Source: Terriglobia bacterium (lineage in GTDB: Bacteria > Acidobacteriota > Terriglobia > Terriglobales > Acidobacteriaceae). Taken from it: a DNA stretch of 64,000 nucleotides. Of the stretch, positions 4,239-18,431 are shown piece after piece. Each line of letters starts with the position of its first letter. The stretch's first letter is position 1. The position numbers were made by a program, and so were the translations under genes. Under the pieces are notes generated by a model. The model did no database searches. It was not told the DNA's origin and saw only the letters and a program-made list of their open reading frames with translations. The stretch lies in contig JAIQGE010000015.1 in NCBI GenBank assembly GCA_020072815.1, positions 1-64,000 on the forward strand, written 5' to 3'.

Positions 4239-4805
4239 TTATTGCAGAGTGAAGTCAACGGCGCTATCGCTGCTAACGGTGATTTTCTTGGATTGGACTT
4301 TTTTACCCTCGTGCCAAGCGGTAATTGTGTATGGACCGTCGGGTACGTTAGAGAGAGTGAAGTCACCGGCTGCGTCGGTCTCGGCGAAGTAGGGAGTGGG
4401 AGACACGATGACGAAAGCCGACATTTCAGGGTGCGCGCTGCAAAGCAAGGGGACGATACCGGGGTCGGTAAACTTGAAAGACCGTTTCTGCCCCTCCGGC
4501 CAAGTGCCCAGGTTGTGGGTCTTCTTCTTGTCCCCGGAAATGGACGGCCAGAATACGTTGTGTTGTACTTTGTCGCTGTTCAGGAACTCGACCGTCGTCC
4601 CCACTTGGACCACCAGCACGTGCGGCTGGAAGAGCAATCCGCGTTGGTCCATGGTCACGATCTTTTCTGCGGGCTGTGGTGCAGTGCTTTCCAAATAGAC
4701 TACTGACTTGCCCGGAGACACTTTGCCTTTGATTGAGCCGGCCATGCACAATTGAGACGCGACAAGGGCCAAAGCAATGACCTGGAGTGAATATTTGAGT
4801 TTCAT
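4239..4805 (-). CDS. Exported blue-copper (plastocyanin-like) protein with C-terminal Ig-like domain
   Basis: A 188-residue exported protein. After a signal peptide (about 1-22) it has a cupredoxin fold with a type-1 copper ligand set: His82 in KVQHN, then Cys122, His125 and Met128 in LLCSAHPEM. Residues from about 140 form a carboxypeptidase-regulatory-like beta domain (FTLSNVPDGPYTITAWHEGKK). Such proteins usually shuttle single electrons in the periplasm. The ATG at 4805 has GAGAGGA just upstream and begins at the signal peptide, so it is preferred over an earlier frame extension. It lies 44 bp downstream of the dihaem cytochrome gene and is the last gene of the respiratory cluster, so it is a plausible soluble acceptor of the module. 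Confidence 0.75.
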   Translation of the reverse strand: MKLKYSLQVIALALVASQLCMAGSIKGKVSPGKSVVYLESTAPQPAEKIVTMDQRGLLFQPHVLVVQVGTTVEFLNSDKVQHNVFWPSISGDKKKTHNLGTWPEGQKRSFKFTDPGIVPLLCSAHPEMSAFVIVSPTPYFAETDAAGDFTLSNVPDGPYTITAWHEGKKVQSKKITVSSDSAVDFTLQ

Positions 4806-4849
4806 TTTTCCTCTCTTCAAGACTACTGGCTGCAAATCCTCAACGGCCT

Positions 4850-5875
4850 CTATCGCCGAGCCGCATATTCGGCAAAGTAGATTGCCGCGATCTCTTCCTC
4901 AGTGAAATACGGGTAGGCGGGCATCACATCCCCCCCTGTTTTTTTCATCACGTCGCAGGAGCCATATTGGACCTGGTGAACAACGCCGCTGAGAGAGTGC
5001 CCTCTCGGGATGCTGGCGAGTGACGGAATGGTCCCCTGCTGCATGCTCGCGTGTCCAGCGCCTGGACCGGTGGCGTCGTGACATATGTGACAGGTCCCCC
5101 TCTCGATGTGCTCGCCCACCCGGGCGGCGGATTCGGGAACAAGAAGACCATCACGTTTTGTCGGTGGGACCCCAGCCAGCTTCTCCAGATGACCCAGCAA
5201 AGCGTCCACTTCATCTGCGCGCAGGTACTCAAAGGACGGCATGCTCTTTCCACCGTGTTGAAGCCGGTCGCGCAGGGAGGTGTCTGCCATTTCGGTCACC
5301 TCGTTGATCATGTCGTCATCCACATCGATTCCTCTCGCCGTCAGGCGAGTTCGCGTCAATACCGCGGACGTTCCCTGGACGGGGCCCAGCACCGAGTTGA
5401 TTTCCGGCGTTGATCCTTTTCCATCGGGTCCGTGGCATCCCTGGCAATTCCAGCGGTAAAGATCAGCTCCCGTCACCACGAATTTTTCATTCAGGATTTC
5501 CGAAGATTGTTCCGGGCGGGCGCGGAACGTCGAGAGCAATCGCTGGACAATCGGTTTCAAGTTGTCCGGCCCTGCAGGAGTTCCCGTTGTAAGTCCCGGC
5601 TTCTGGTCGGTGGCGGGAACGGGCCCTCCTGCTCCCACCTGGCCCATCTGAGTTTGTGAGACTGTGAGCCCAAGATGTTTCAGCCAGCTTGGCCCCTGCA
5701 CGGAAGTAGTGGGGAGCTCACGGGGTTTTGCGTCCGCAATCAGCATCTTTCCCGGTTGCTGCGCGCTCCCCTGCCCCCCGTTGGCTTGCATGTTTTGCCC
5801 TGAAGCGGAAAGCCGGAACCCGGCCACTGCCAGGGTCGCGGCGAGTACCAAAACAACATAGATCATCCGGTTCAT
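4850..5875 (-). CDS. Dihaem cytochrome c, exported
   Basis: A 341-residue protein with an N-terminal signal or anchor (IYVVLVLAATLAVAG) and two haem c sites, CQGCH at 144-148 and CHICH at 262-266. Each is followed by a likely Met ligand region (for example SMPSFEYL after the first and VMPAYPYF after the second). The ATG at 5875 is chosen because upstream codons read back into the preceding gene. It is 11 bp from the end of the NrfD-like gene, indicating co-translation. In comparable NrfD modules the cytochrome takes electrons from the iron-sulfur subunit and hands them to a soluble carrier or reductase. Residues 23-115 are Gly/Pro/Gln-rich, have no recognised domain and may be a flexible tether. 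Confidence 0.8.
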   Translation of the reverse strand: MNRMIYVVLVLAATLAVAGFRLSASGQNMQANGGQGSAQQPGKMLIADAKPRELPTTSVQGPSWLKHLGLTVSQTQMGQVGAGGPVPATDQKPGLTTGTPAGPDNLKPIVQRLLSTFRARPEQSSEILNEKFVVTGADLYRWNCQGCHGPDGKGSTPEINSVLGPVQGTSAVLTRTRLTARGIDVDDDMINEVTEMADTSLRDRLQHGGKSMPSFEYLRADEVDALLGHLEKLAGVPPTKRDGLLVPESAARVGEHIERGTCHICHDATGPGAGHASMQQGTIPSLASIPRGHSLSGVVHQVQYGSCDVMKKTGGDVMPAYPYFTEEEIAAIYFAEYAARR

Positions 5876-5886
5876 GAAGTGTGGCC

Positions 5887-8052
5887 TCACTTGCTTTGGA
5901 AATTGGACTGCAAAGCGTGGTGAACATTGAGCGCCTGGGGTGTGCTTAATGTTACGGTTGATGACGCAGTCAATGCTGCGGTTGATGATGCGGCTAACGG
6001 CGTCTGGATCGATGCTGGTTCTGTGTCCTGGGAAACGCTGCGCATTTTCCATAGGATCAAGTATCCAAAAGTGTAGATAAATGCCGCCCACATGGTGCCG
6101 TAGAACGCCAGAAAAGGAACCGTGATAGACGGGGTAGCGAAAGGAGTGATCAACACACCGGTTTGAGGCAGCGAAGGCAACGGTCGTGCGCCGAAATCAA
6201 CAGTGATGTTGAAGTCTGCAGGAGCGTATTCTTCATCGCCGCGGAAAGCCACTTGCACGGGATAGGAACCGTAGCGGCGGTCTTTGATGATCAGTTGCGC
6301 CTTGCCATCGGCCAGTGTGGGGCGGCTACCGAACGAAAGGTTGCCGAGACCGGTCTTTACTGAAAACTCCACGGGCTTGAAGCTGATGGGCGCCCCGCTC
6401 GCGTCACGCAAGGTGGCAATGACGGCCACGGGAGGCAGTGGTTTCGGCTCGTTTTGAGGTGAGCGGGTGAGCAGTCCATGCAGAGTGAAGAGGCCAGCGT
6501 ACGTCGAAACACGTTCTTTCCCCACAGGAGCACTCTCGTCGGACGCGGACACGCGGGTCGCTTCCGCCAACGGAACCGTCTTCCACTCCGCAGTGATTGC
6601 GGCTACTTTGGTTGGCTTGGGCCGGACTGGGCCGGCAGCGTTCGCGCTTGTACCCCAAAGCAGCAGGGCCGCCAACATCAAGGCTGGAAACACGATTCCC
6701 GGTTTCCACCACCGCGCGGGCACAACCACGGCGGGCTCGGGCTGTGCGATCTCCGGTTCCTGCTCGCGCGTCTCCCACATTGATACGATCGGGAACACCT
6801 TGGCCATCAACGTGTAAATCAACGCGAAGCCGGCAACCGCGGCCGCAGTGATTGACCACTCCACCCAACTGGGATGGTAGTGTGTCCACTCCCAGGGCAG
6901 CCTTTGTCCCGAAGGCAGATAGGGGCTGCGCAGCGTTGGAACAACGATGATGTAGCGCTTCACCCAAGCGCCCACGATCACCAGTGCCGATGAGAACACC
7001 ACGCCGGGTATGGTATAGCGCTGATAGCGCTTGAAGCCCAGCACGGCGATCATGACGGCCGCCGGAATAAATACGCACATGCTCTGCGCGACCCAGAACA
7101 ATACGGCATAGTCACCAGTAAATAGGCGGTCCATCAGCATGCGCTCCATTCCTTCCAGCTTGTAGCCGGCGGTCAGGTACTCGTTGATGTTGAAGTACAG
7201 ATAGATGAGCGAGAACGCGAGCAGCAGCAGGCCCAGTTTGCGGAAGTGCAGATCCTCAACGTATTGTTGCAGGCGGAAAACGCGCCGCAGCACCCACATG
7301 GAGAAGATCACGCCGGCTGTCCCGGAATAGATGGCGCCCACGACGAAATAAGGCCCAAAGATGCTACTGTTCCATCCTGGACGCAGGGTCATGGCGAAGA
7401 TCCACGAGACCACCGTGTGCACCGAGACCGCCAGGGGGATAATGAAGACGGCCATGGAGGAGATGGACTTCTCCAGCAGCGCCTTCTGTCCCACTGTCCC
7501 GGTCCAACCCAGCGAAAGCGCGCGATACAGGCGGCGCCGCCAGGAAGAGATCTGCGGGAGTTTGGCCAGAATCGCCAGGTCGGGGATCATGGGGATGTAG
7601 AAATAGAGGATGCAGCCGGTCAGGTAGGTGCTCACACCGAGCACATCCCAGATGATGGGCGACTGTATGCGGCCGTAGCGGAACACGTTGAGCAGCCGGT
7701 CGGGCCGGCCCATGTCAATCATGACCATAGGCGCGCCAATGCACAGCGCAAACACTGTGATGGCCTCGGCCATGCGGGTGATCGGTTTCCGCCATTCGGT
7801 GTCCGTGACTCGCAGTATGGCCGAAATCAGCGTGCCCGCGTGGCTGATGCCGATGAAGAAAACGAAATTGGTAATGTACAGCCCCCAGGAGATCTGGTCG
7901 CGCATGCCGGTGACGATCAGCCCGTTCCGCAGCTGTTGGATGTAGGCGTACAGCCCCCACAGCAGGACCGCGACTAGGAAACCGACCCAGAGATAGAATC
8001 GCCAGGTGTTTTCCAGCATCGAACGCAGCAAATTCTGTTCACGAGCTTCCAT
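5887..8052 (-). CDS. NrfD/PsrC (ActC-like) quinone-reacting membrane subunit with extra C-terminal domain
   Basis: A 721-residue membrane protein. Residues of about 15-430 carry the NrfD/PsrC fold, with HAGTLISAILRV, WRKPITRMAEAIT, SPIIWDVLGVSTYLT and SVHTVVSWIFAM, the last followed by GWNSSIFGPYF. These are closest in pattern to ActC of alternative complex III. Such subunits oxidise or reduce quinones and dock an iron-sulfur subunit. Unusually there is a further helix at about 445-470, a roughly 165-residue extracytoplasmic beta-rich domain, another helix near 655-675 and a Ser/Thr-rich tail. Typical NrfD or ActC proteins are about 300-480 residues, so this is a fusion or extension. The ATG at 8052 is favoured over a GTG at 8058 because GAGAGG sits five bases upstream. 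The gene follows the ferredoxin gene by 9 bp. Confidence 0.85.
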   Translation of the reverse strand: MEAREQNLLRSMLENTWRFYLWVGFLVAVLLWGLYAYIQQLRNGLIVTGMRDQISWGLYITNFVFFIGISHAGTLISAILRVTDTEWRKPITRMAEAITVFALCIGAPMVMIDMGRPDRLLNVFRYGRIQSPIIWDVLGVSTYLTGCILYFYIPMIPDLAILAKLPQISSWRRRLYRALSLGWTGTVGQKALLEKSISSMAVFIIPLAVSVHTVVSWIFAMTLRPGWNSSIFGPYFVVGAIYSGTAGVIFSMWVLRRVFRLQQYVEDLHFRKLGLLLLAFSLIYLYFNINEYLTAGYKLEGMERMLMDRLFTGDYAVLFWVAQSMCVFIPAAVMIAVLGFKRYQRYTIPGVVFSSALVIVGAWVKRYIIVVPTLRSPYLPSGQRLPWEWTHYHPSWVEWSITAAAVAGFALIYTLMAKVFPIVSMWETREQEPEIAQPEPAVVVPARWWKPGIVFPALMLAALLLWGTSANAAGPVRPKPTKVAAITAEWKTVPLAEATRVSASDESAPVGKERVSTYAGLFTLHGLLTRSPQNEPKPLPPVAVIATLRDASGAPISFKPVEFSVKTGLGNLSFGSRPTLADGKAQLIIKDRRYGSYPVQVAFRGDEEYAPADFNITVDFGARPLPSLPQTGVLITPFATPSITVPFLAFYGTMWAAFIYTFGYLILWKMRSVSQDTEPASIQTPLAASSTAALTASSTVTLSTPQALNVHHALQSNFQSK

Positions 8053-8061
8053 GCTCACCTC

Positions 8062-8907
8062 TCAGTGCCCCATGCCTGCCATGTCGGTTTGCTGCTTCTC
8101 CTCGGGAGACGGGTACTTACGGCTGGCGGGAGGCAGGTAATAAACGCGCGGCTCAGTCCCCAGTTCTTCCAACAATCGAAAACCAGCCCCACGCTGGGCG
8201 ATCTTGGAGAACTGGATGGTCTCCCCTTTGCCGTTGGTCACCGCATCGTCAAGTTGATCTCCGAAGTAGATGGCTCCCATTTTGCAGGTTGCGGCGCACG
8301 CGGGAAGCTTTCCCGCCTTCAGGTGCTCGGGACAGAAGATGCACTTTTCTATCGTGCCTTTGCGGTGCGGGTAGTTGTATTCCACGTCGTAGGAGCGGGC
8401 CAGTTCCTGCGACGTATGCGGCGGCTCTCCCCAGTTGAAGGAGCGCGCGGAATATGGACATTGGGCGATGCAGTTGCGGCAACCGATGCAGCGATCGTCA
8501 TCCTGGATGACTATGCCATCCGTGCGTTTGTAAGTAGCGCCTACCGGGCAGGCCCGTACACACGGCGGGTTATCGCACTGCATGCAAGGACGGGGCAAAA
8601 AATAAGGCCCAGCAGCCTCATTGTCGGTAATTTCAAATACCTTGATCCACTCCTGCATCGGCGGAACGAAGTGCATCGCAGTGCAGGCTTTGGTGCAGTC
8701 CCGGCATCCGTCGCACTTGGCCAGGTCAATAACCATGACCCATTTCTGGTTGCCGGGAGCAATGGACCGCGCCGGAAGCACTTCGCGGAACATCTTCGCG
8801 GCGCCCGCCTTCCATGCCGCTCCCACAGCTACCACGACCCCGGTTCCGCGCGCCAGGAACTGCACGAAACCGCGCCGTGACATCGCGTTGTCCGAAGGCT
8901 TGCTCAT
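8062..8907 (-). CDS. Tat-exported four [4Fe-4S] ferredoxin subunit (NrfC/DmsB-like)
   Basis: A 281-residue iron-sulfur protein with a twin-arginine signal (SRRGFVQF at about residues 10-17). Four cysteine clusters match the DmsB/NrfC/PsrB family: CDGCRDCTKAC, CMQCDNPPCVRAC, CIGCRNCIAQC and the CIFC...CAATC pair near 189-208. It would sit outside the membrane on the NrfD-like subunit and carry electrons between quinone and the haem or copper partners. The ATG at 8907 overlaps the stop of the upstream cupredoxin gene (ATGA), implying coupled translation. No molybdopterin oxidoreductase gene, the usual partner of this family, is present anywhere in the cluster. In alternative complex III the equivalent domain is fused to ActB. 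Confidence 0.88.
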   Translation of the reverse strand: MSKPSDNAMSRRGFVQFLARGTGVVVAVGAAWKAGAAKMFREVLPARSIAPGNQKWVMVIDLAKCDGCRDCTKACTAMHFVPPMQEWIKVFEITDNEAAGPYFLPRPCMQCDNPPCVRACPVGATYKRTDGIVIQDDDRCIGCRNCIAQCPYSARSFNWGEPPHTSQELARSYDVEYNYPHRKGTIEKCIFCPEHLKAGKLPACAATCKMGAIYFGDQLDDAVTNGKGETIQFSKIAQRGAGFRLLEELGTEPRVYYLPPASRKYPSPEEKQQTDMAGMGH

Positions 8908-9302
8908 GGGGTGACCACCAGCCGCATCTTCATGTCGTCGTGGCCTGCACCGCATTTGACCGTGCACTCCACCACGTATTGGCCCGGCTGCGCAGGCGCC
9001 GCCAGGGTAAAGTCTTGCGTGCCTTCCTTAAGGCGCAAGTCCCATCCCTGGTCCTTGAGCGCATTGATTGTGAAGGTATGGATGGTGCCGTCTTTGTCCC
9101 ACTCCGTGCTCTTGTTGGCGATGATCCGCAGATGCACGACCTCATTGGCTTTCATAGTGATGACCGGCATTTTCTGGCCTTGAATCTTGAACAAGTTGTC
9201 CTTGTCGGCAATCACAGTAATCAGCCGCGGCGGGCCACCGGACATGGCCGGCGTAACCCAAACCAGGAACATGATCAGGATGACAGGCAGAATTCGATTC
9301 AT
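8904..9302 (-). CDS. Exported CuA-type cupredoxin
   Basis: A 132-residue cupredoxin with an N-terminal signal (MNRILPVILIMFLVWVTPAMS). The C-terminus has C113-TVK-C117-GAG-H121-DD-M124, the CuA ligand spacing of cytochrome c oxidase subunit II and nitrous oxide reductase. A further His75 in TIHTF sits where CuA proteins supply their first histidine. It is therefore expected to hold a binuclear copper electron-transfer centre rather than a type-1 site. The start at 9302 is chosen for the signal peptide; a GGAGG lies about 15 bases upstream, slightly far. The gene heads the ferredoxin-NrfD-cytochrome run and has its own upstream -24/-12-like promoter and activator dyad. No haem-copper oxidase core subunit is nearby. 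Confidence 0.8.
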   Translation of the reverse strand: MNRILPVILIMFLVWVTPAMSGGPPRLITVIADKDNLFKIQGQKMPVITMKANEVVHLRIIANKSTEWDKDGTIHTFTINALKDQGWDLRLKEGTQDFTLAAPAQPGQYVVECTVKCGAGHDDMKMRLVVTP

Positions 9303-9342
9303 TTTTAACAAGTGCCACCTCCCAAGAAACTGTGTAGGACAG

Positions 9343-9360
9343 ATGCATTTTGGCCACCAG
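9343..9360 (-). promoter_or_regulatory. Putative sigma-54 (-24/-12) promoter for the cupredoxin-NrfD operon
   Basis: Read on the minus strand, CTGGTGGCCAAAATGCAT has GG at 9358-9357 and GC at 9346-9345, the invariant GG-N10-GC spacing of sigma-54 promoters. The -12 element is TGC rather than the ideal TTGC, so it is a weaker match. The implied transcript start is about 30 bases before the gene start at 9302. The neighbouring regulator is a GAFTGA-type sigma-54 activator. Confidence 0.45.
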
Positions 9361-9503
9361 TCCGATATCGCGTGCAGCATGCCCCAGCCGGAGCGACAGT
9401 AAGTGCGCACAAACGTTGATCTCTGTGGCTGCCGGCAAGAGAGGTCACAAGTGATTAGTGATGACTGCGGCCGTTCTGCACGCGAAGAGCATCGGACAGT
9501 TTG

Positions 9504-9520
9504 TGTCAGATAGTCGGACA
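9504..9520. promoter_or_regulatory. Putative activator dyad (UAS), copy A
   Basis: The 17-mer TGTCAGATAGTCGGACA is a TGTC/GACA dyad that agrees at 14 of 17 positions with 10894-10910. A second half site, ATCGGACA, lies at 9491-9498. The centre is roughly 180 bp upstream of the predicted start of the cupredoxin transcript, within the normal range for NtrC-type enhancers. Confidence 0.55.
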
Positions 9521-9522
9521 TC

Positions 9523-10770
9523 TCAGTGGCGCGCCCCGGCCGGCAAATTCAGGAAGGCAAGCAGGTCGCCGACATCGTCTCCGGCCAAGGTTGGCCAGGC
9601 CAGTCCCAATTGGCGAGTTTGCGCATGCATCTGCTGGCCGTGTCGCCACAGTGCCACCGCCAGACTGATCGAGTTGTAGGTTCGCCCTCGAAGCGCGGGG
9701 GCCCGCGGGGTGCCTTCGGCGTTTTCGCCGTGACAGCGGCTGCAACCGCGCCACTGAAACACGCTTGCTCCCACATGGGGCGAACCGGAGGGTTCAACGT
9801 ATGTAAGGCTGTAGAGGAACGCGAAAATATCTGTCATCTCCTGGGCCGAAAGCTTGGGGCGCGTGATGCCTTGCCGAGCCATCGCCTTCTCCATCTGGGG
9901 ACAATGGCTGACCATAGCGCCGCCCAGTTCCATAAACGTCCCCGGCAACGGCCGCTCAGGCACAAAGCTGGGTCCCTCCAGGGTGTAGGCATCACGAATG
10001 GAGTGACATCCCGCGCAGGATTTCTGTTGAAACGTCTGCCATCCACGCTCGGGATCGCCGTACGGTACCGGGCCATTTGAGCTATCCTGCCGCACGAACG
10101 CATACAGGTCCCGCATCTCATGACCCTGAAATTTCGGCCATGGGACCCCTTCCTGCTCCGCGGATTGCCGCATTTTCGAAGCGTGGTTCCAAAGGGCTTC
10201 CGTCCACTCCATCGGCCCGATTAGGTCGTTAACTGCCGCAAGATCCGGCCCTGTCCTGCCGCCGGCCCCGTGAACGGCGTGACAACGCACGCACCCTTTG
10301 CTTTGAAATAACTCGCGCCCGATGACGGGATCACCGGGATCATCAACGTGGCGGGACATATAGAGGTAGGACAGCAACTGCGCAACGTCGTCGTAGCTGA
10401 GACTGGGACGAGGAACGCCGTCGGTGCGCATCCGCTCCCACATCTTGGGTCCGTGGTTCCACATCGCCGTGACCAGCTGTGGCAGGTCCGATCGGGACGG
10501 ATCTCTGCGGCCCAGGTCGGGGCCCACGTTGCCACCCTCGCCATTCACCGAATGGCAGCGAATGCAGCCTTTCGCGCGGAACACTACGCTGCCTTGTTGT
10601 GGGCTGCTTGCCAGAAAAAGCGAAGATCGCTCGCGCGCTCGCCGGCCCTGAGTAACCATGGCCCCGGCGAACACCACCACAGCGACTGTAGCCAGGAGCG
10701 CCCAAGCGATCAGGCGAATCGGCTGGCGCCCTTCGGAACTCTGGCCATGCGACACGGTAGGTCTCCGCAT
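9523..10770 (-). CDS. Membrane-anchored tetrahaem cytochrome c of four tandem modules
   Basis: A 415-residue protein with one N-terminal membrane helix (about 20-40) and four haem c motifs: CIRCH (69), CVRCH (160), CAGCH (252) and CSRCH (343). The motifs are 83-92 residues apart, and the intervening sequence repeats the same plan: a Gly-rich stretch with GPDL in the first two, an H-x3-M element (NHGPKM, NHASKM, SHCPQM, RHGQQM), then P-x-L/F and a helix. So the protein is four duplicated monohaem domains, each with its own candidate Met ligand. ATG at 10770 has AGGAG nearby. However the predicted sigma-54 start falls at about 10768, which would instead favour GTG at 10755 (GGAG seven bases upstream). 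It probably accepts electrons from the NrfD module. Confidence 0.85.
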   Translation of the reverse strand: MRRPTVSHGQSSEGRQPIRLIAWALLATVAVVVFAGAMVTQGRRARERSSLFLASSPQQGSVVFRAKGCIRCHSVNGEGGNVGPDLGRRDPSRSDLPQLVTAMWNHGPKMWERMRTDGVPRPSLSYDDVAQLLSYLYMSRHVDDPGDPVIGRELFQSKGCVRCHAVHGAGGRTGPDLAAVNDLIGPMEWTEALWNHASKMRQSAEQEGVPWPKFQGHEMRDLYAFVRQDSSNGPVPYGDPERGWQTFQQKSCAGCHSIRDAYTLEGPSFVPERPLPGTFMELGGAMVSHCPQMEKAMARQGITRPKLSAQEMTDIFAFLYSLTYVEPSGSPHVGASVFQWRGCSRCHGENAEGTPRAPALRGRTYNSISLAVALWRHGQQMHAQTRQLGLAWPTLAGDDVGDLLAFLNLPAGARH

Positions 10771-10778
10771 GAGACTCC

Positions 10779-10794
10779 TGCAATCGCCTGGCCA
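10779..10794 (-). promoter_or_regulatory. Putative sigma-54 (-24/-12) promoter for the tetrahaem cytochrome gene
   Basis: On the minus strand, TGGCCAGGCGATTGCA matches TGGC-N8-TTGCA with GG and GC ten bases apart, a near-consensus sigma-54 promoter. Its predicted transcript start is about 10768. It lies 134 bp downstream of the centre of the dyad at 10894-10910. Confidence 0.6.
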
Positions 10795-10876
10795 TCACGG
10801 GCGTGAAGTGATCTGAAAACTAACTTGATTGCAAACGGTTAGCGTTGGTGTTTGTGAAGAGCGGCCGGCCGGCAAG

Positions 10877-10910
10877 TGTCCGATCTGCGTGCATGTCAGA
10901 ATATCGGACA
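10877..10910. promoter_or_regulatory. Putative activator dyad (UAS), copy B
   Basis: TGTCAGAATATCGGACA at 10894-10910 is the partner of the dyad at 9504-9520. An extra half site, TGTCCGAT at 10877-10884, is the exact inverse of ATCGGACA at 10903-10910. The spacing to the predicted sigma-54 promoter suits binding of an NtrC-family dimer or tetramer. The most likely protein is the regulator encoded immediately upstream. Confidence 0.55.
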
Positions 10911-10923
10911 GTCGCGGCGGTAG

Positions 10924-12303
10924 CTACGGTTCGGTACGGTACTCCCGCATCTTGCGATAAAGCGTGTCGCGAGAGATCCCCAGGAGCGCAGCGGCCTTGC
11001 TTCGGTTTCCTTCCGCCAGTCGCAGCGCCCGGTCGATGGCCATCCGCTCCAGCGGCTCCATCGCCACCGTCTGCCCTACACCTTTGGCCGCAGGCTCGTC
11101 CGCTAGTCCGGCCGGATCGAGTAACGGCCGCAGGTCTTTTTCCGTAATGGTCTGCGGATCGTCGCGCGACAACGCGGCGAGGCTTTCGAGCAGGTTCTCC
11201 AGTTCGCGGACGTTGCCTGGGAACGCGTACTTGAGCAGCAATTCCAGAGCACTGCGATGGAGTGTGATGTGCCGTTCGTAGCGTTGTTCCAGCCTTTGCA
11301 GCGTGTGTTGCGCAAACACCAGAATGTCCTCCGGCCGCGCGCGCAGCGGAGGAATCTCGATCACTACAGTCGCAATCCGGAAATAGAAATCCTGGCGAAG
11401 CTGCTCGTGGCGAAGCTCGTCGTTGGTGCGGTTGGTAGCAGCAATGATACGCACGTCCACGGGAATGGCCTTGGTGCCGCCTACCGGCCGCACCTCTTTA
11501 TCCTGCAGCACCCGCAGCAGCTTCACCTGGACTTCCTTCGGCATCTCGCCAATCTCGTCCAGGAACACGGTGCCACGCGCCGCGGAAGCGAAAATTCCCG
11601 CGCCGTCCGCAAAGGCGCCGGTGAAAGCACCGCGACGATAGCCAAACAGCTCACTCTCAACCAACTCCCTGGGCAGAGCGCCGCAATTCACCGGAACGAA
11701 CTGGTTGGCCGCGCGGCCGCTGGCGGCGTGGATGGCGCGTGCCAGCAGTTCTTTCCCCGTGCCGGTTTCACCCAGCACCAGAACCGGCGAATCGGATTCG
11801 GCTGCTGTCCGCGCCTTCTCAACCGCCCGCTGCATGAGCGGCGAAACGTACACCAGCGAGTCGAATGAGGGACGGCAACGATGCAAGTGACTCTCGAGTT
11901 GCGAGACCCGGCTTCGCAGCCGGAATACCTCCACGATCCGCCCCACTTTCTTCTTCACTGCTTCGGGCTCCAGCGGCTTGGTCAGATAGTCTTCCGCGCC
12001 CCGCTTGATGGCCTCGACTGCCGTTTCGATGGTTCCAAAGCCGGTCATGATCATCACCGCCAGATCGGGATCTTCTCTTCGCAACTGCTCCATCAGCGTG
12101 ATGCCATCCGTCAGCGGCATCATCAGGTCCAGCAGCGCCAGGCAAATGCGGGGGTTCTTCTTCTGGATAGCGAGCGCTTCTTCGCCATCATGGGCAATTT
12201 CCACCAGGTATCCCTCTTCCTCCAGGAATTCCTGGAGGGTCCTGGTGAGGCTGGGGTCATCGTCCACGACCAGCACCGTGGGCTTGGCGCCTGACTCGTT
12301 CAT
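10924..12303 (-). CDS. NtrC-family sigma-54-dependent response regulator
   Basis: A 459-residue activator in the order receiver, AAA+ and Fis-type HTH. The receiver has the acidic patch DDD (14-16), phospho-acceptor Asp59 in LLDLMMP and Lys109. The AAA+ domain has Walker A GETGTGKE (178-185), the sigma-54-contacting GAFTGA loop (225-230) and FLDE (247-250). The C-terminus ends with EGNRSKAAALLGISRDTLYRKM, a Fis-like helix-turn-helix. All elements needed for phosphorylation-dependent open-complex formation with sigma-54 are present. Its start overlaps the kinase stop by four bases (ATGA). It ends 153 bp before the tetrahaem cytochrome gene, whose upstream region carries a dyad and a -24/-12 promoter, so it very likely controls the redox genes. 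Confidence 0.93.
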   Translation of the reverse strand: MNESGAKPTVLVVDDDPSLTRTLQEFLEEEGYLVEIAHDGEEALAIQKKNPRICLALLDLMMPLTDGITLMEQLRREDPDLAVMIMTGFGTIETAVEAIKRGAEDYLTKPLEPEAVKKKVGRIVEVFRLRSRVSQLESHLHRCRPSFDSLVYVSPLMQRAVEKARTAAESDSPVLVLGETGTGKELLARAIHAASGRAANQFVPVNCGALPRELVESELFGYRRGAFTGAFADGAGIFASAARGTVFLDEIGEMPKEVQVKLLRVLQDKEVRPVGGTKAIPVDVRIIAATNRTNDELRHEQLRQDFYFRIATVVIEIPPLRARPEDILVFAQHTLQRLEQRYERHITLHRSALELLLKYAFPGNVRELENLLESLAALSRDDPQTITEKDLRPLLDPAGLADEPAAKGVGQTVAMEPLERMAIDRALRLAEGNRSKAAALLGISRDTLYRKMREYRTEP

Positions 12304-13637
12304 GCTGATACCTCTTCCGGTGCCGCTGCTCTTGACGAGAGCGGCAGCTCGATCCGTACCACCGTGCCCTGGTTCGGAACGCTGTCAATGTGCATGCAGC
12401 CTTCATGTTCCTGGAGGATGGTCGCTGCAATGGACAACCCCAGCCCGGTACCCTTGCCCACCGGCTTAGTCGTGAAAAACGGCTCGCAAATATGTGGCAG
12501 GTTGTTCGGATCAATGCCGCAGCCGTCGTCTTCGATGGTTACGTGAATCCGCTGGTTTTCCGTGTGGCAGCCAACCAGAATATGTCCCTTTAGGCCGACG
12601 GCGTCCAGTGCATTGGTGATCAGGATCAGGAACAAGGCCTCAATCTGGTTGCGATCGGCCATGACCGCGGAACCGGGCACCTGGTCCATGTCCAGCGTGA
12701 TGCGGGCCTGTTTGGCCACAAGTTGTGGGCTTAAAAAACTCAAGACCGAATGAAGCGTTTCCTGGATGCCTTCCGCGTGCCGCGCAAGTTGTGGCCGGCG
12801 GCTGAAGTCCAGCAGCCGGCGAACAAACTGCTGGCAATAACGAATGCTGCCCTCCAGGTCACCGAGGTCCGTGTCCACGGCTGAGTTCTGGGCGTGCTTG
12901 CGCGCCAGCTGGACGCGCAGGAGCATGGACGCCAGCGGGGTATTCAGGTGGTGTGCTGTTCCCGCCGCCATCTGGCCCATCGTGGTCAGCTTTTCAACCT
13001 GCAGCAGAGTCTGTCGCAGACGGATGCGTTCCCGGATATCGACACTCACCTCCAGGAAGTAATGACCGGGTTCCTCTTCGTGATATGGAAGTACGTTGGC
13101 TTGCACGTCAATGATATCGCCGTGCTTTGCGCAACGGCGCGTTTCAACGTCCAGCACCGGTTTGCCCTGGGAGGCTTGCGCAAGAAACGTCTGCATTTCG
13201 TGTTGCTTCTCGGCGGGGACGATTGGCAGCTTGCGTCCAATCACCTCAGCGCGGGTGTAACCGTAGAGGTCCTCAGCCGAGGCATTCCACTCTTCAACCA
13301 CCAAAGCAGAGTCGAAAAGCGCGATGGCCGCGGGAGAACAGTTGAGAATCCCGAGATAGCGCGCCCGCGAGCGCCGCAGCTGTTGTTCGCTTTTACGGCG
13401 TCCCCGCAACACAAACCAGCCGGCCCAGAACGCCAACAGGAAAGAGGAAAACACGCCTCGGCTAATGTAAAGGTAATGAAGAGTAAGGTAATCGGCGTCG
13501 CGGAAGAAGCGTGATTCCAGCAGTTCCCATACGGCGAACACAAATCCGACAACGCTGATGCTCGAAAGCACCAGCGTCACCCAAAACCACCGCCGTTCGG
13601 GAAAATTGTCGGGCATCACTCCCCGGGTTGCGGCCAT
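12300..13637 (-). CDS. PAS-containing membrane sensor histidine kinase
   Basis: A 445-residue kinase with two membrane helices (about 19-38 and 60-78) separated by only some 20 residues, so a large periplasmic sensor is absent. A PAS domain follows (about 90-205), then the dimerisation box with the likely phospho-acceptor His229 (GTAHHLNTPL). The ATPase domain has NALDAVG, DDGCGI and GKGTGLGLSIA. It is the cognate partner of the sigma-54 activator with which it overlaps by four bases. The architecture suggests sensing of a membrane or cytoplasmic redox or quinone signal through PAS, though no Cys pair or haem-binding signature is obvious in that domain. ATG at 13637 is accepted because the frame extends only slightly further. 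Confidence 0.9.
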   Translation of the reverse strand: MAATRGVMPDNFPERRWFWVTLVLSSISVVGFVFAVWELLESRFFRDADYLTLHYLYISRGVFSSFLLAFWAGWFVLRGRRKSEQQLRRSRARYLGILNCSPAAIALFDSALVVEEWNASAEDLYGYTRAEVIGRKLPIVPAEKQHEMQTFLAQASQGKPVLDVETRRCAKHGDIIDVQANVLPYHEEEPGHYFLEVSVDIRERIRLRQTLLQVEKLTTMGQMAAGTAHHLNTPLASMLLRVQLARKHAQNSAVDTDLGDLEGSIRYCQQFVRRLLDFSRRPQLARHAEGIQETLHSVLSFLSPQLVAKQARITLDMDQVPGSAVMADRNQIEALFLILITNALDAVGLKGHILVGCHTENQRIHVTIEDDGCGIDPNNLPHICEPFFTTKPVGKGTGLGLSIAATILQEHEGCMHIDSVPNQGTVVRIELPLSSRAAAPEEVSA

Positions 13638-14416
13638 CTTTGTTCGACAACCTAGGCTGGAAAGGTATCCCTGTTTCTCACTCCCTGGCTGTGATCGCCG
13701 TCACATGGGGGTTGGTTCGGTGGGCCACGTTTCTGGCTTCCGGGGACACAATTGAAAATTGGGCCTTGCTAGCGGCTAGATGTACGAAGTTCCCAGAATC
13801 CTGATTCTGAAACAGCCATAATGTCCTGCCTAGGCACCGTAAACTTAGTCACTTGGCGACCCACTTAAGCCGAGGTTTTTGGCAACAGCACGTTCACGGC
13901 TGCCCTTTACTTATGAGCTTGGAAGAGAAGGGGGTGACCGTCCACAAAAGCACAGTGTGGCCGTTCATCGACTTCCGGGTTGCCCGTGATCTGACCGCAA
14001 TCGGGGCACACGGTCCAACAGGCAACTGCACTTCCCCGAACCGGACTTCGGGGGCGTCTTGACGGCATCGTTTCTTAAGATCGCGACCTTGCAGGCGGGG
14101 TTAGATTTCCAGGAACCCATCCAAAAATTATTTTTGAAACGTTCATGTCCTCATCTGCACTAACATCGGAAGGGATTTCCGATCCCGAATTGCAGTCATT
14201 GTGGCATTTGGCACAGATTGAGGCCTGAAATTGAGGCCTGAAGGTGATAGAGGCTCGCGTTCACCCCGAGGCCTTACTCCCAGCATTCATTTTTCTTAAC
14301 GTAGGTGACCGTCTTGGTGAAGCCGCAATTCCTTCGGTAACTGAAGTTGACATGTTGTTTGGCGGGCCGAATCAGGATTGCCATAATTCTAATTCAGAAG
14401 ATTGGGAGGAAAACAC
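13638..14416. other. Intergenic stretch between divergent genes, with a repeat copy
   Basis: It separates the sensor-kinase operon (minus) from the BNR-propeller gene (plus). No reading frame here resembles a protein. It includes the second copy of the dispersed repeat at 13986-14052. A clear promoter could not be assigned for either side. Confidence 0.4.
13986..14052 (+). repeat. Dispersed intergenic repeat, copy 2
   Basis: Diverged direct copy of 244-308; both lie in non-coding DNA, 13.7 kb apart. Further weak similarity (a GAGGTTTTTGG block) precedes both copies, at about 213 and 13870. Confidence 0.4.
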
Positions 14417-17400
14417 ATGCCCCTCACATTTGCACATTGCCTCCGGCTTTGCCGGTCCACCCGCTGGTTGACTCTGTGCTTGCTCGCCTTCTGTATGGCG
14501 CCTTCGGTGGTTGAGAGTCAGTCGGTAATTCAAGGGATTAACTGGTTTCCAATCGGTCCGGCTGACTACCAAAACGGACAGACCAACGCCGATTCTCGGG
14601 TGCATGCCAGCGGCCGCGCGACGGTGATCGCGGTGAATCCAGCGAACTCGAATGACGTCTGGCTGGGAACGGCCGGCGGGGGTGTATGGCACTCTACCAA
14701 CGGTGGGGTCAACTGGTTGCCAATGTCCGACAATGAGGCATCTCTGGCCATCGGTTCAATCGCGCTGGATGGTTGCAGCGCCAGCGGCTGCTCTGTGATT
14801 TATGCGGGTACCGGGGAAAACGGCATCCGGCGTGACACCTATTACGGCATGGGACTGCTGATTGGATCGACTTCGGGCGGCGAGTTTCCCACGTTCAGTT
14901 GGAATCTGGTGGGCGCCAGCCTTTTCAAGTTCGCATCGATTACCAACGTCGTTCTCGATCCTACGACCTCGGCGGGCAGCAAGGTGATTTACGTTTCCGT
15001 GTCGAGCGGCGTTACTGCTTCCGCGACTGAATCAACGGTGACGGCGCCCCCGCCGCCGCAAGGCTATGGAATCTACAAGTCCACAAATCAAGGCTCCGGC
15101 TGGACCCACCTCACCGTTCCCGGATCGGGAACTGCCCGGTCAACCGATCTGTTGATGGATCCGCAGAGCAACACGACACTTTATGCCGGCTTCCTGGGAA
15201 AAGGCATCTTCAAGACTACGGATGGAGGAGCACACTGGTGTCCGCTGAACTCCGGCATCGCGCTGCCACCGGGATGCGCGGCAGCCACGGGACTGCCCAA
15301 CCCGGCAACCACTACCTTCGACAGCGTGCGGCTGGCCATTCGTCATCCTAGCGCCGCATCACCGGCTGTCCTTTACGCCGTTCTTGGTAATTGTCCCGAT
15401 CCCATTGGCAATGGGCCGGTCTTTGGAGGCTACTGCAGTTCGCCCTTGTTCAAAACCACCGATGCAGGCGCGACTTGGACCCAGGTCAACGCTGGCGTGC
15501 CAACGGGTTTCAGCCGCTATCACCAGGCGCTGACCATCGACCCAGGCACTGACGCGACGGTCTATTTCGGCGGCCTGGTCATCAACAAGTCCACCAATAG
15601 CGGCCAAACATTTAATGAGATGGGCGCGAACGTCCACCCGGATCACCATGATCTGGTTTTTCCCGACCCCTCGAACGCGAGCCGCATTTACGACGTGAAC
15701 GATGGCGGTTTTGTGTTTTCCAACGACGGCGGTAATTCGTGGACCAGCGGGAACAGCGATCTGCAAATCAGCGGATTCCAATCCCTTTCTTTCTCGCCGT
15801 TGACGGCTCGCATTATCGGAGGGACGCAGGACAACGGAACCGAAATGTGGGTGGGCACGCGCATCTGGAACCACAGTGACGATGGCGACTCCGCCTCGAC
15901 CGTCATGGACCGGGATGACGTCATGACCATGTTCGATCTTTACGTGAGCGTGGATCCCCGCAGGTCCACGGACGGCGGCAGCTGTTGTGGCTGGTCAAGC
16001 ATTACGAATGGCTTGAATACCTTGGAGCCGGCATCCTTTTATGCTCCAATCGTGGAGGCCGCCGCGGCTCCCCATAATCTTTTCTTCGGCAGCAACCGTT
16101 TGTACCGGAGCCCCGACAAAGGCAGCTCCTGGACCGCGGTGAGCCCGGTGCTGGGCGGAACGACACCAGTCTTTCCTGATATAGGCGTTTCCAACGTGAT
16201 TACGACCATTGCCGTGGCCCCCAGCAATGGCAACCGCGTTTACATCGGCTACTACGACGGGCAAATGTTCGTCACCAATAGCGCCTGCACCACCCTGGCT
16301 TGCTGGACCCCGATCGGGGGCGCAGCCAAGGGTCTTCCCAACGCGCCGATCACGCGCATCGCCGTGGATCCCAACAGCCCCGATGTCGCTTACGCCACCT
16401 ACTCGGGCTTCAGCGCCGGAGCCCATGTGTTCAAGACCACGAACGGCGGCGGCATGTGGACACCGGCGAATACCGGGCTGCCAAGCATCCCCACCAACAC
16501 CATCACGGTGGAAAACCCCACTACCCTCTGGGTGGGCACGGATGACGGAGTTTATCTGAGCACCAACTCTGGTGGCAGCTGGATCAAATATGGAACTGGA
16601 CTGCCGCATGTACCGGTGTATGAGATTTCCGTTGACACAGTTCGTGGGCGTCTTTACGCGGGTACCCACGGCCGCGGCGCGTTCATCATTACGCAACCGT
16701 TCCTCAGCAACTTTGAAGGCTGGGTGAACAATGACATCTGGGACATCCCGGTGTTTGGCAATGGCTTTGTCGGCACTCTGGCGAACCCGGTCGGCTCCGC
16801 CTGCACCATGCAGATCATTCAGCAAAATGGCGCCGTCTGCGCTGCATCTACCACCGATGACATGGGCGGAACCATTTCGTTTGACGGCTCGGGCAGCATC
16901 GTGACCAGCAAAGGCGGCTTCTACAAAGGAAAAACCGTTGCGTGGGCCTGCTTCAATGGAAGCTGCATCGGCGGCAAGACAATCGCGCAATGCAATCCGC
17001 CTGGCAACCCGATCACCAGCGTAACCATCACCTGCGGCGGGCAGGTGGGGATTGATCATATTTTGGGTTGTCCGGCGCAAGCGAATCCCCCGAGCAGCAT
17101 TCTGGGTCTTTCCGGTATGCCGGCCGGGGGGCCAGCGCCGGGACCTGGTCCGGCTCCGCCAACACCCGGATCGGAACCGGTCCCAGCCGCTAATTTTGAC
17201 GTGATTCCCGCGGTACAGGGACGGAACGGTGTGCAGGTCCTGTGCACTGCGAATGTCGCCCTGCAGACGGGAACTAAGACCGACGCGGCGCTCTTGAAGA
17301 CGCGCGACGCCGTGAATTCAACTCCCTCCTGCCAGCAAAGCGGGGTGAAAGCTGAGGTTCATGGAATACCACCGGAACCGCTCAAAGGGGAAGACCTCCA

Positions 17401-18382
17401 GGGCAGCCCGCCGAATTTGAAGCTGTTCGCGCCGTCGGCCGTGGGAGGGCAATTGTTCACGGCAATCCATGCGGCTCCCGGATCGGCGACCAGCACGTGT
17501 TTCGACGTCTCGGGAATCGGCTCACCGTTGCGCAACCAAATCGCCGTCATGAAGGTCGACTTGGAAACTTCGCCCGGTGGCGCGGCCGGTGGTGACGTTA
17601 CGGTGCGCGAGAGCTCCAGCCTGGGTTCTTGCACAGCCAAGGTGCACACCGATCCCGGGGAGAGTGCCGCCCAGATTGCCAGCGACCTGGCCAAGGCTTT
17701 CCAGGCGCCCGGCGTACCCGGACCCGCCGCGTGTCCAGCAAACCAGAATCCGCGCGACATCACACCCGACGGAACGTCGATTATCAGCGTGCTGGCGTCG
17801 GAATTGCGGGTGTGCAATACCGACCGCAACGTGGGCATCCTGATTGGTCCCAAGGAGCTGCCCAACGTAAAGACTCGCGCCCTGCAGTACTCAGCCAAAT
17901 TCGTGTGCGGACAGGTGGAGAAGGAAAAGGACTTGTTGCATGACCTGTTCGGCAAGAAGGACAAGAAAGGCGACAAAGATAAGGACAGGGATGATAAGGA
18001 TAAAGATAAAGACAAAGATGAGGACCGCGACCGCGGCGGGGAGCAGGTAGCCAACGGAAGGTACTACACCGCCATCAACGTTCACAATCCTACGGAGAGA
18101 CCGGCAGCGATCCGGATGAAATTCGCCGTGGCGCAGGCGGACGGAAAACCCGGCCCGATTTCGCGTTTCCTCGATCTCCGGCTCGGACCCGATGAGGTGA
18201 TTTCCATCAATTGCTCCCAGATCCACCGGTGGCTCGCAACCAAAGAGAAGTTCTTGGATGGATTTGCGGTGCTCGAGAGCGACGTCGAGCTCGACGTCGT
18301 TGCGGTATACACCGCAGCCGGGGAGCACGGAGACGTACAAACCCTGCACACCGAACGTGTGCCGGCCCGCTTGCAGCAATAG
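14417..18382 (+). CDS. Secreted BNR/sortilin-type beta-propeller protein, 1321 residues
   Basis: A large exported protein. After a signal peptide, residues up to about 770 hold many BNR-type repeats (for example GGVWHSTNGGVNW, GIFKTTDGGAHW, LFKTTDAGATW, VFKTTNGGGMW and VYLSTNSGGSW), predicted to form one or more beta-propellers. A Pro/Gly linker (about 895-920) precedes a Cys-containing region of unknown fold. Next come a Lys/Asp-rich tract at about 1175-1205 and a final 110-residue beta domain beginning RYYTAINVHNP. The ATG at 14417 has GGAGG seven bases upstream, better than an in-frame TTG at 14402. Function is unknown; such propellers usually bind ligands or polymers at the cell surface. 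The next gene starts 49 bp downstream and may be co-transcribed. Confidence 0.75.
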   Translation: MPLTFAHCLRLCRSTRWLTLCLLAFCMAPSVVESQSVIQGINWFPIGPADYQNGQTNADSRVHASGRATVIAVNPANSNDVWLGTAGGGVWHSTNGGVNWLPMSDNEASLAIGSIALDGCSASGCSVIYAGTGENGIRRDTYYGMGLLIGSTSGGEFPTFSWNLVGASLFKFASITNVVLDPTTSAGSKVIYVSVSSGVTASATESTVTAPPPPQGYGIYKSTNQGSGWTHLTVPGSGTARSTDLLMDPQSNTTLYAGFLGKGIFKTTDGGAHWCPLNSGIALPPGCAAATGLPNPATTTFDSVRLAIRHPSAASPAVLYAVLGNCPDPIGNGPVFGGYCSSPLFKTTDAGATWTQVNAGVPTGFSRYHQALTIDPGTDATVYFGGLVINKSTNSGQTFNEMGANVHPDHHDLVFPDPSNASRIYDVNDGGFVFSNDGGNSWTSGNSDLQISGFQSLSFSPLTARIIGGTQDNGTEMWVGTRIWNHSDDGDSASTVMDRDDVMTMFDLYVSVDPRRSTDGGSCCGWSSITNGLNTLEPASFYAPIVEAAAAPHNLFFGSNRLYRSPDKGSSWTAVSPVLGGTTPVFPDIGVSNVITTIAVAPSNGNRVYIGYYDGQMFVTNSACTTLACWTPIGGAAKGLPNAPITRIAVDPNSPDVAYATYSGFSAGAHVFKTTNGGGMWTPANTGLPSIPTNTITVENPTTLWVGTDDGVYLSTNSGGSWIKYGTGLPHVPVYEISVDTVRGRLYAGTHGRGAFIITQPFLSNFEGWVNNDIWDIPVFGNGFVGTLANPVGSACTMQIIQQNGAVCAASTTDDMGGTISFDGSGSIVTSKGGFYKGKTVAWACFNGSCIGGKTIAQCNPPGNPITSVTITCGGQVGIDHILGCPAQANPPSSILGLSGMPAGGPAPGPGPAPPTPGSEPVPAANFDVIPAVQGRNGVQVLCTANVALQTGTKTDAALLKTRDAVNSTPSCQQSGVKAEVHGIPPEPLKGEDLQGSPPNLKLFAPSAVGGQLFTAIHAAPGSATSTCFDVSGIGSPLRNQIAVMKVDLETSPGGAAGGDVTVRESSSLGSCTAKVHTDPGESAAQIASDLAKAFQAPGVPGPAACPANQNPRDITPDGTSIISVLASELRVCNTDRNVGILIGPKELPNVKTRALQYSAKFVCGQVEKEKDLLHDLFGKKDKKGDKDKDRDDKDKDKDKDEDRDRGGEQVANGRYYTAINVHNPTERPAAIRMKFAVAQADGKPGPISRFLDLRLGPDEVISINCSQIHRWLATKEKFLDGFAVLESDVELDVVAVYTAAGEHGDVQTLHTERVPARLQQ

Positions 18383-18431
18383 GGGGCTTGTTTACGTGAC
18401 TGTATTCAGCTATCCAGGACGGAGGATCGCG

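Follow-up and report, generated by a model that had tools for sequence, protein, structure and literature searches.

A CuA cupredoxin, ferredoxin and NrfD gene module with sigma-54-type regulatory sites in a Terriglobia bacterium

We analysed a 64,000-nucleotide stretch of DNA from a Terriglobia bacterium, hereafter the window, which comprises bases 1-64000 of contig C15 in an assembly of 5.29 Mb and 32 contigs. It carries a minus-strand operon encoding a two-component system, c-type cytochromes, copper proteins, an exported ferredoxin and an NrfD-like quinone protein. Open reading frames together with Pfam and NCBIfam matches confirm the eight genes, their place and the names given to them in an initial annotation of this DNA. 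Genes and putative regulatory sites are as follows, where L050, L051 and L052 are other Acidobacteriota loci and Tat denotes twin-arginine translocation.

12300-13637, minus strand: PAS sensor histidine kinase (HisKA, HATPase_c and PAS matches in Pfam/NCBIfam)
10924-12303, minus strand: NtrC-type sigma-54 activator (Response_reg, Sigma54_activat and HTH_8, a Fis helix-turn-helix; GAFTGA motif)
10894-10910, minus strand: putative activator palindrome TGTCCGA-N3-TCTGACA upstream of the tetrahaem gene, conserved in L050-L052
10779-10794, minus strand: sigma-54 -24/-12-like site TGGCCAGGCGATTGCA (GG-N10-GC), conserved in L050-L052
9523-10770, minus strand: membrane-anchored tetrahaem cytochrome c (four CxxCH motifs)
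9504-9520, minus strand: second putative palindrome TGTCCGA-N3-TCTGACA, upstream of the CuA gene, conserved in L050-L052
9344-9359, minus strand: sigma-54 -24/-12-like site TGGTGGCCAAAATGCA, as read from the sequence, with GG-N10-GC shared with L050-L052
8904-9302, minus strand: stand-alone periplasmic CuA-type cupredoxin with a signal sequence (ligands, predicted fold)
8062-8907, minus strand: Tat-exported ferredoxin with four cluster motifs (16 Cys and RRxF)
5887-8058, minus strand: NrfD-like quinone protein with a C-terminal helix, immunoglobulin-like (Ig-like) domain and helix extension (Pfam NrfD, 1e-36)
4850-5875, minus strand: dihaem cytochrome c (two CxxCH motifs; orthologues in L050-L052, 512-518 bits)
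4239-4805/4835, minus strand: type-1-like cupredoxin with a carboxypeptidase-regulatory-like domain (Copper-bind and CarboxypepD_reg), a facultative member

The tetrahaem gene probably starts at GTG 10755 rather than at the ATG of 10770, since GGAGR-N-GTG, and not the ATG, is common to four aligned loci. The CuA gene starts at about 9302, and ATG 9521 of the mechanical open reading frame is not its start. The terminal cupredoxin has no homologue in the three closest loci, L050-L052, so that the conserved unit comprises seven genes and not eight, and the blue-copper gene falls outside the unit in which the initial annotation had placed it; one homologue is located after NrfD at L057. The operon ends 4.2 kb from the end of the contig, which bounds the view of genes farther downstream.

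The CuA protein has, in sequence and predicted structure, the ligand set of a CuA centre (His, two Cys, His, Met) within a cupredoxin fold. The ligands H75, C113, C117, H121 and M124 are invariant in all 14 aligned rows, and the structure model, with a predicted local distance difference test score (pLDDT) of 85.3, matches cupredoxin and CuA folds. The adjoining ferredoxin retains its 16 cysteines and the twin-arginine RRxF in 14 of 14 rows, an alignment that leaves out the apparently frame-broken copy at L056. The operon places an exported four-cluster iron-sulfur (FeS) protein next to NrfD.

The NrfD protein has 723 amino acids. Hydropathy indicates ten segments within residues 20-420 and one at 453-474; after the core come a helix, then an Ig-like domain (a Big_1 match of 30.6 bits, under the 34.9 of Pfam) and a further helix, which was missed by the hydropathy scan and is read from the sequence and a poor model. 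This extension is conserved in seven aligned rows. Among solved structures the core is most similar to ActC. Using residues reported for the quinone site (PMC8076601) and equivalences counted by hand on an alignment with ActC structures, we find the serine (S133, ActC S164) and the aspartate (D138, D169) retained, while D115 stands at the position of ActC H139, as in DsrP, QrcD and Wolinella PsrC. All three are invariant in the seven rows, and the gate arginine R368 (ActC R395) is kept in six of them. These residues should be read with caution since, according to passages of PMC13059093, D120A and R358A in QrcD had little effect on growth; S138A abolished electron transfer.

Predicted sigma-54 control of the operon is well supported, as a GAFTGA activator, upstream sites and -24/-12-like sites all occur together. 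A palindrome and a -24/-12-like site precede both the tetrahaem and the CuA gene, in line with the shared regulatory sites and the sigma-54/two-component control proposed in the initial annotation. The pattern TGTCNGAN{2,4}TCNGACA occurs twice in the 5.29-Mb genome, both times in the operon, with none for the reversed control; as the pattern was derived from these same two sites, the count alone proves little. The palindromes recur at the same two positions in L050-L052, amid surrounding DNA of lower conservation (mean column identity 77%). The L051 and L052 genomes contain no further sites, and the L050 genome has one more. The reversed control gives 0, 0, 1, 1 and 3 matches in the genomes of L050, L051, L052, L053 and L091, and chance matches therefore do occur. 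The L053 and L091 genomes hold one exact palindrome each, neither of them in the module loci; that of L053 (L176) is flanked by a second activator gene on one side and a second tetrahaem gene on the other, and at the L053 locus itself one-mismatch palindromes precede the tetrahaem gene and the decaheme-porin unit. No palindrome was found in the remaining clade loci searched. The -24/-12 pattern has four matches in the window, a number reached by 4 of 100 shuffles, so that such a match alone is weak.

To describe the gene order in relatives we compared 14 contexts in which the CuA gene and upstream sequence are present (the window, L033, L050-L057, L060, L064, L065 and L091), which sets apart L058, where CuA lies between two module copies, and L059 and L061-L063, which are cut upstream. 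One scan of a genome collection, of which the best 80 of 272 loci were kept, gave as the closest named relatives at the locus metagenome-assembled genomes labelled Acidobacteriota, several of them Terriglobia. The order kinase, NtrC activator, tetrahaem cytochrome, CuA, FeS, NrfD, dihaem cytochrome is identical in L050, L051 and L052, which bears out the expectation that synteny extends beyond the genome of the window. L053 shows a kinase truncated by the contig end (199 bits), an activator (733 bits), the tetrahaem cytochrome, a DmsE-family decaheme cytochrome, an MtrB_PioB porin, CuA, FeS and NrfD. A kinase and activator pair lies upstream in 7 of the 14 contexts (window, L050-L053, L057 and L091), that of L057 scoring only as a distant relative. 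The tetrahaem cytochrome precedes CuA in five (window, L050-L053); homologues in L050-L053 score 536-743 bits and occur also in ACIII-like clusters with a split MopB (ACIII, alternative complex III).

The upstream region also varies in its outer-membrane genes. A barrel gene lies directly upstream of CuA in 6 of the 14 loci, in four of them together with a decaheme cytochrome (L053, which also belongs to the tetrahaem group, L056, L060 and L091) and in the other two, L057 and L064, as a small porin with a monohaem cytochrome. Three contexts have instead a large multihaem cytochrome downstream (L033, L055 and L054, cut by the contig end in L054), and L065 has none of these four arrangements. 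Pfam has no matching family for the barrels at L056 and L060 or for the porins at L057 and L064, which we take to be outer-membrane proteins on account of their length, their composition and the end of their sequences. Tandem copies occur in genome G056 (L035/L058 and L036/L063), where one contig, cut at both ends, reads FeS-NrfD-CuA-FeS-NrfD and another has three NrfD genes with the Ig-like extension in a row.

In a tree of 75 NrfD rows, whose rooting is unsure as four outside references sit on very long branches, the CuA clade, with its 17 rows, comes out as a single group with a support of 99 in the Shimodaira-Hasegawa-like approximate likelihood ratio test (SH-aLRT). In two of these rows (L061, L062) the sequence is cut off before a CuA gene is reached. 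The CuA profile matches 14 of 18 clade loci, the other four (L059, L061-L063) being cut by contig ends upstream, and none of 90 other NrfD loci. Of these 90, 17 span just some 4 kb and others are cut by contig ends, and L002 and L047 represent one place. The clade, characterized by CuA, FeS and an NrfD with Ig-like extension, sits within an FeS-NrfD lineage that spans many phyla and lacks a molybdopterin subunit: its neighbours are FeS-NrfD pairs without a MopB match from Planctomycetota, Omnitrophota, Verrucomicrobiota, Gemmatimonadota, Armatimonadota, Bacteroidota, Chloroflexota and archaea, among others. The NrfD proteins of fused ACIII and split-MopB clusters make up a group of their own with 33 rows (SH-aLRT 100), in which L072 is placed despite having no MopB score.

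No molybdopterin match occurs anywhere on the contig of the window, and the MopB reference has no match at any of the 18 clade loci. A strictly linked catalytic subunit, which the initial annotation had named as a refuting finding, is absent from the contig. The further claim of that annotation, that the lack of such a subunit makes this a new kind of system, holds for the absence at the locus and is not supported for the novelty, given the NrfD tree and passages of PMC3534657, PMC6303296 and PMC9386147.

A porin akin to those of L057 and L064 lies slightly downstream in 5 of the 20 FeS-NrfD rows without MopB (L066, L067, L077, L079, L081). It is followed by the same monohaem family in four of the five, the contig of L077 ending inside the porin, and the pair is found also at L074, a member of the MopB group. 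Both profiles were built from loci that they then matched; a leave-one-out repeat recovers 7 of 7 porins (164-409 bits) and six monohaem proteins (72-104 bits). The porins found beside FeS-NrfD in Omnitrophota, Verrucomicrobiota, Bacteroidota and Planctomycetota have 330-480 amino acids, mostly with a monohaem cytochrome of about 100 amino acids. The porin and monohaem pair may be a counterpart, in split form, of the Cyc2-type porin-cytochromes.

The module is rare, and its occurrence is patchy. A search with the NrfD core detected clade members (56-71% identity) in 3 of 60 relatives (G009, G055, G056), the best match in eight genomes of the same genus reached E 6.6e-61, which is ActC level, and among 396 genomes sampled from the phylum, the own one included, one other reached 1e-130.

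Starting from gene content, cofactor ligands, synteny, phylogeny and regulatory sites, all taken from sequence, we infer a direction of electron flow, partners, an acceptor, an inducing signal, energy coupling and the formation of a complex. With moderate confidence we propose a quinol dehydrogenase module induced by the two-component system, which would pass electrons via CuA and cytochromes c to a high-potential acceptor in the periplasm or outer membrane. NrfD would oxidise (mena)quinol close to the periplasmic face and deliver electrons to the four [4Fe-4S] clusters of the Tat-exported ferredoxin, from where they may reach the stand-alone CuA protein and the membrane-anchored tetrahaem and dihaem cytochromes c, and finally the acceptor. 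The kinase/NtrC pair would turn on two sigma-54 units, one with the tetrahaem cytochrome and one with CuA, FeS, NrfD, the dihaem cytochrome and, where present, the cupredoxin. Gene content, synteny and regulatory sites support the earlier proposal of one regulated redox unit with copper and c-haem carriers. The step from FeS-NrfD to periplasmic carriers is made plausible by precedent in passages of PMC3534657, PMC9386147 and PMC6303296.

In several relatives the acceptor side would be a porin-cytochrome conduit in the same cluster, and for the window a conduit, an oxidase or some other acceptor would need to be supplied by another part of the genome. A more specific reading is one that we put forward tentatively: the module would be part of an inner-to-outer-membrane conduit in which CuA is the fixed carrier between NrfD-FeS and interchangeable exits (MtrAB-like, barrel plus decaheme, or porin plus monohaem cytochrome c), with a private sigma-54 switch in the sub-clade of the window, and would belong to a wider FeS-NrfD family in which a related porin partner persists in four or more phyla besides Acidobacteriota. 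Decaheme and barrel genes adjoin the CuA-FeS-NrfD core at 4 of the 14 loci, in agreement with the extracellular acceptors considered possible at the outset. Within 6 kb of the 14 loci we count four decaheme genes against about 0.05 expected (Poisson 3e-7), a rough estimate based on 26 hand-counted decaheme places over the cut-off and on loci that share ancestry. At genome level, PF11854 exceeds its cut-off in 7 of 17 module genomes versus 20 of 200 class genomes (one-sided Fisher p 0.0018), and the TIGR03508 decaheme in 15 of 17 versus 117 of 200 (p 0.012). The module genomes are related, the class sample contains the own genome and some module genomes (e.g. G055), and class counts may be low because only the best few candidates per genome were scored (up to 12 for TIGR03508). 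As proof of an extracellular role we set this co-occurrence aside.

Several observations weigh against these proposals. The operon itself contains neither a barrel nor a decaheme cytochrome, the pair that within one cluster marks an MtrAB-type conduit; a barrel adjoining CuA is absent in 8 of the 14 loci; and MtrB_PioB has no match in the genome. Its sole strong decaheme-barrel pair (G000:C5 190720-194295) comes with a cytochrome b and a nine-haem protein of its own, and the genome-level co-occurrence is weak evidence, decaheme genes being common in the class (117 of 200). For the CuA protein the match by sequence is weak (best profile E 0.0036; CoxB 21.7 bits versus a cut-off of 147.7) and the best fold match is Cupredoxin_1 of Bacillus, with the CuA domains of cytochrome ba3 and nitrous oxide reductase close behind. 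In NrfD, ActC Asp253 is replaced by Ile220, and the structure model is poor (pLDDT 50.9) and was not used for a fold search.

The decaheme-barrel cluster of the own genome (L168:8721-15700, on G000:C5) comprises a decaheme cytochrome, a barrel, a monohaem cytochrome c, a cytochrome b and a nine-haem cytochrome, and the barrel resembles that of L060 (484 bits). A 1074-amino-acid open frame at L170:6577-9801, with ten CxxCH motifs and an aromatic last residue, is an apparent fusion of a decaheme cytochrome to an outer-membrane barrel, which are separate genes in L171. Outside the operon, the plus strand of the window at 14402-19844 encodes two proteins in succession, the first large and sortilin/Vps10-like, the second vanadium-chloroperoxidase-like.

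Among the alternatives, the module may be an aerobic or micro-oxic quinol:cytochrome c oxidoreductase like bc1 or ACIII, whose CuA and cytochromes feed haem-copper oxidases without an extracellular step. The Cytochrom_C-family haem proteins and the CuA centre look like electron donors to an oxidase, outer-membrane genes are absent from the operon, and the genome encodes two full COX1 genes over the cut-off. One of these lies beside an ACIII-like cluster (five-haem protein, 1048-amino-acid FeS protein and NrfD), which means that an oxidase of this genome is already adjoined by such a cluster; moreover, no oxidase domain was found among those neighbour genes that were scanned against Pfam, and the barrels upstream of CuA in six loci are at odds with this explanation. 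We consider it unlikely.

Electrons might also flow in reverse: a conduit would bring them in from Fe(II), Mn(II) or a partner cell, CuA and the cytochromes would take them up, and NrfD would reduce quinone, possibly by means of the proton gradient. CuA centres usually have a high potential, so that reduction of menaquinone from CuA would run uphill. Metal reducers and metal oxidisers alike have Mtr/Mto/Pio conduits (passages of PMC6295460, PMC10654088), Sideroxydans expresses cupredoxins on magnetite (in a passage of PMC12016527), and QrcABCD is an NrfD module able to reduce quinone (passages of PMC6303296, PMC13059093). On balance, this direction appears improbable. It is very improbable that the true catalytic partner is a molybdopterin enzyme from another part of the genome: the seven Molybdopterin (PF00384) matches of the genome, two of them pieces of one frame, lie on other contigs, the clade loci have no MopB match, the ferredoxin has its own Tat signal, and the split-MopB/ActC NrfD proteins form a clade apart.

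If the proposed quinol dehydrogenase does serve extracellular electron transfer, it would join CymA, CbcL/MtoC and ImcH as a further quinone-side partner, built on copper and iron-sulfur clusters, in which NrfD may link electron flow to a proton gradient. This would suggest how some soil and subsurface Acidobacteriota reach outside acceptors or donors, and the small regulon, with two operator sites in the genome, is amenable to direct test.

Compared with known systems, the NrfD core is closest to ActC, and the tetrahaem cytochrome has homologues in split-MopB clusters, which may be compared with the ACIII-like cluster with a four-haem ActE-like protein in passages of PMC9386147. In contrast to ACIII, the operon has no five-haem protein, MopB domain or second NrfD. 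Identity with ACIII was rejected, as the cluster lacks a five-haem ActA and a MopB-type ActB and its NrfD falls outside the ActC/split-MopB clade. The module resembles DsrMKJOP in that the best NCBIfam matches of its FeS and NrfD proteins are DsrO (181.8 bits, cut-off 200) and DsrP (131.8 bits, cut-off 350). DsrO is likewise exported by its own Tat signal. Membership in DsrOP was rejected, both scores being under the curated cut-offs and DsrM, DsrK and DsrJ having no match among the eight operon proteins in Pfam and NCBIfam. Geobacter Cbc4 combines a multihaem cytochrome with FeS and NrfD like the module of the window, a comparison by description, and is not known to have a CuA.

With MtrAB, PioAB and MtoAB the module shares the DmsE-family decaheme and MtrB_PioB porin that L053 and L091 carry directly upstream of CuA-FeS-NrfD; the window locus differs in having no conduit. 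The inner-membrane partners covered in passages of PMC6295460 are CymA, CbcL/MtoC/MtrH and ImcH, and the word NrfD does not appear in that text. Porin-cytochrome complexes have been reported in an acidobacterium (in a passage of PMC7399161).

The nearest precedents are NrfCD pairs without a molybdopterin subunit, described in passages of PMC3534657 as quinol:acceptor reductases that donate to periplasmic cytochromes. Passages of PMC9386147 give FeS-NrfD the same role as quinol:periplasmic-acceptor reductase in MBNT15, and according to a passage of PMC6303296 an FeS-NrfD dimer may act alone on soluble periplasmic proteins. In Mros1572-1571 of Melioribacter roseus and in cluster 2 of MBNT15 SHF-111, FeS and NrfD are likewise accompanied by cytochromes in place of a molybdopterin subunit (PMC3534657, PMC9386147); the passages concerned mention no CuA, dedicated two-component system or Ig-like NrfD extension, which sets them apart by description. 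The relevant passages of PMC5566968, PMC6344600, PMC10564751 and PMC10654088 describe no CuA-FeS-NrfD module. In the open-licence literature, a scope that leaves subscription papers mostly outside, we found no paper in which CuA is joined with NrfD in such a module. FeS-NrfD without a molybdopterin subunit is thus known, and CuA as its fixed partner together with a private gene switch appears to be new.

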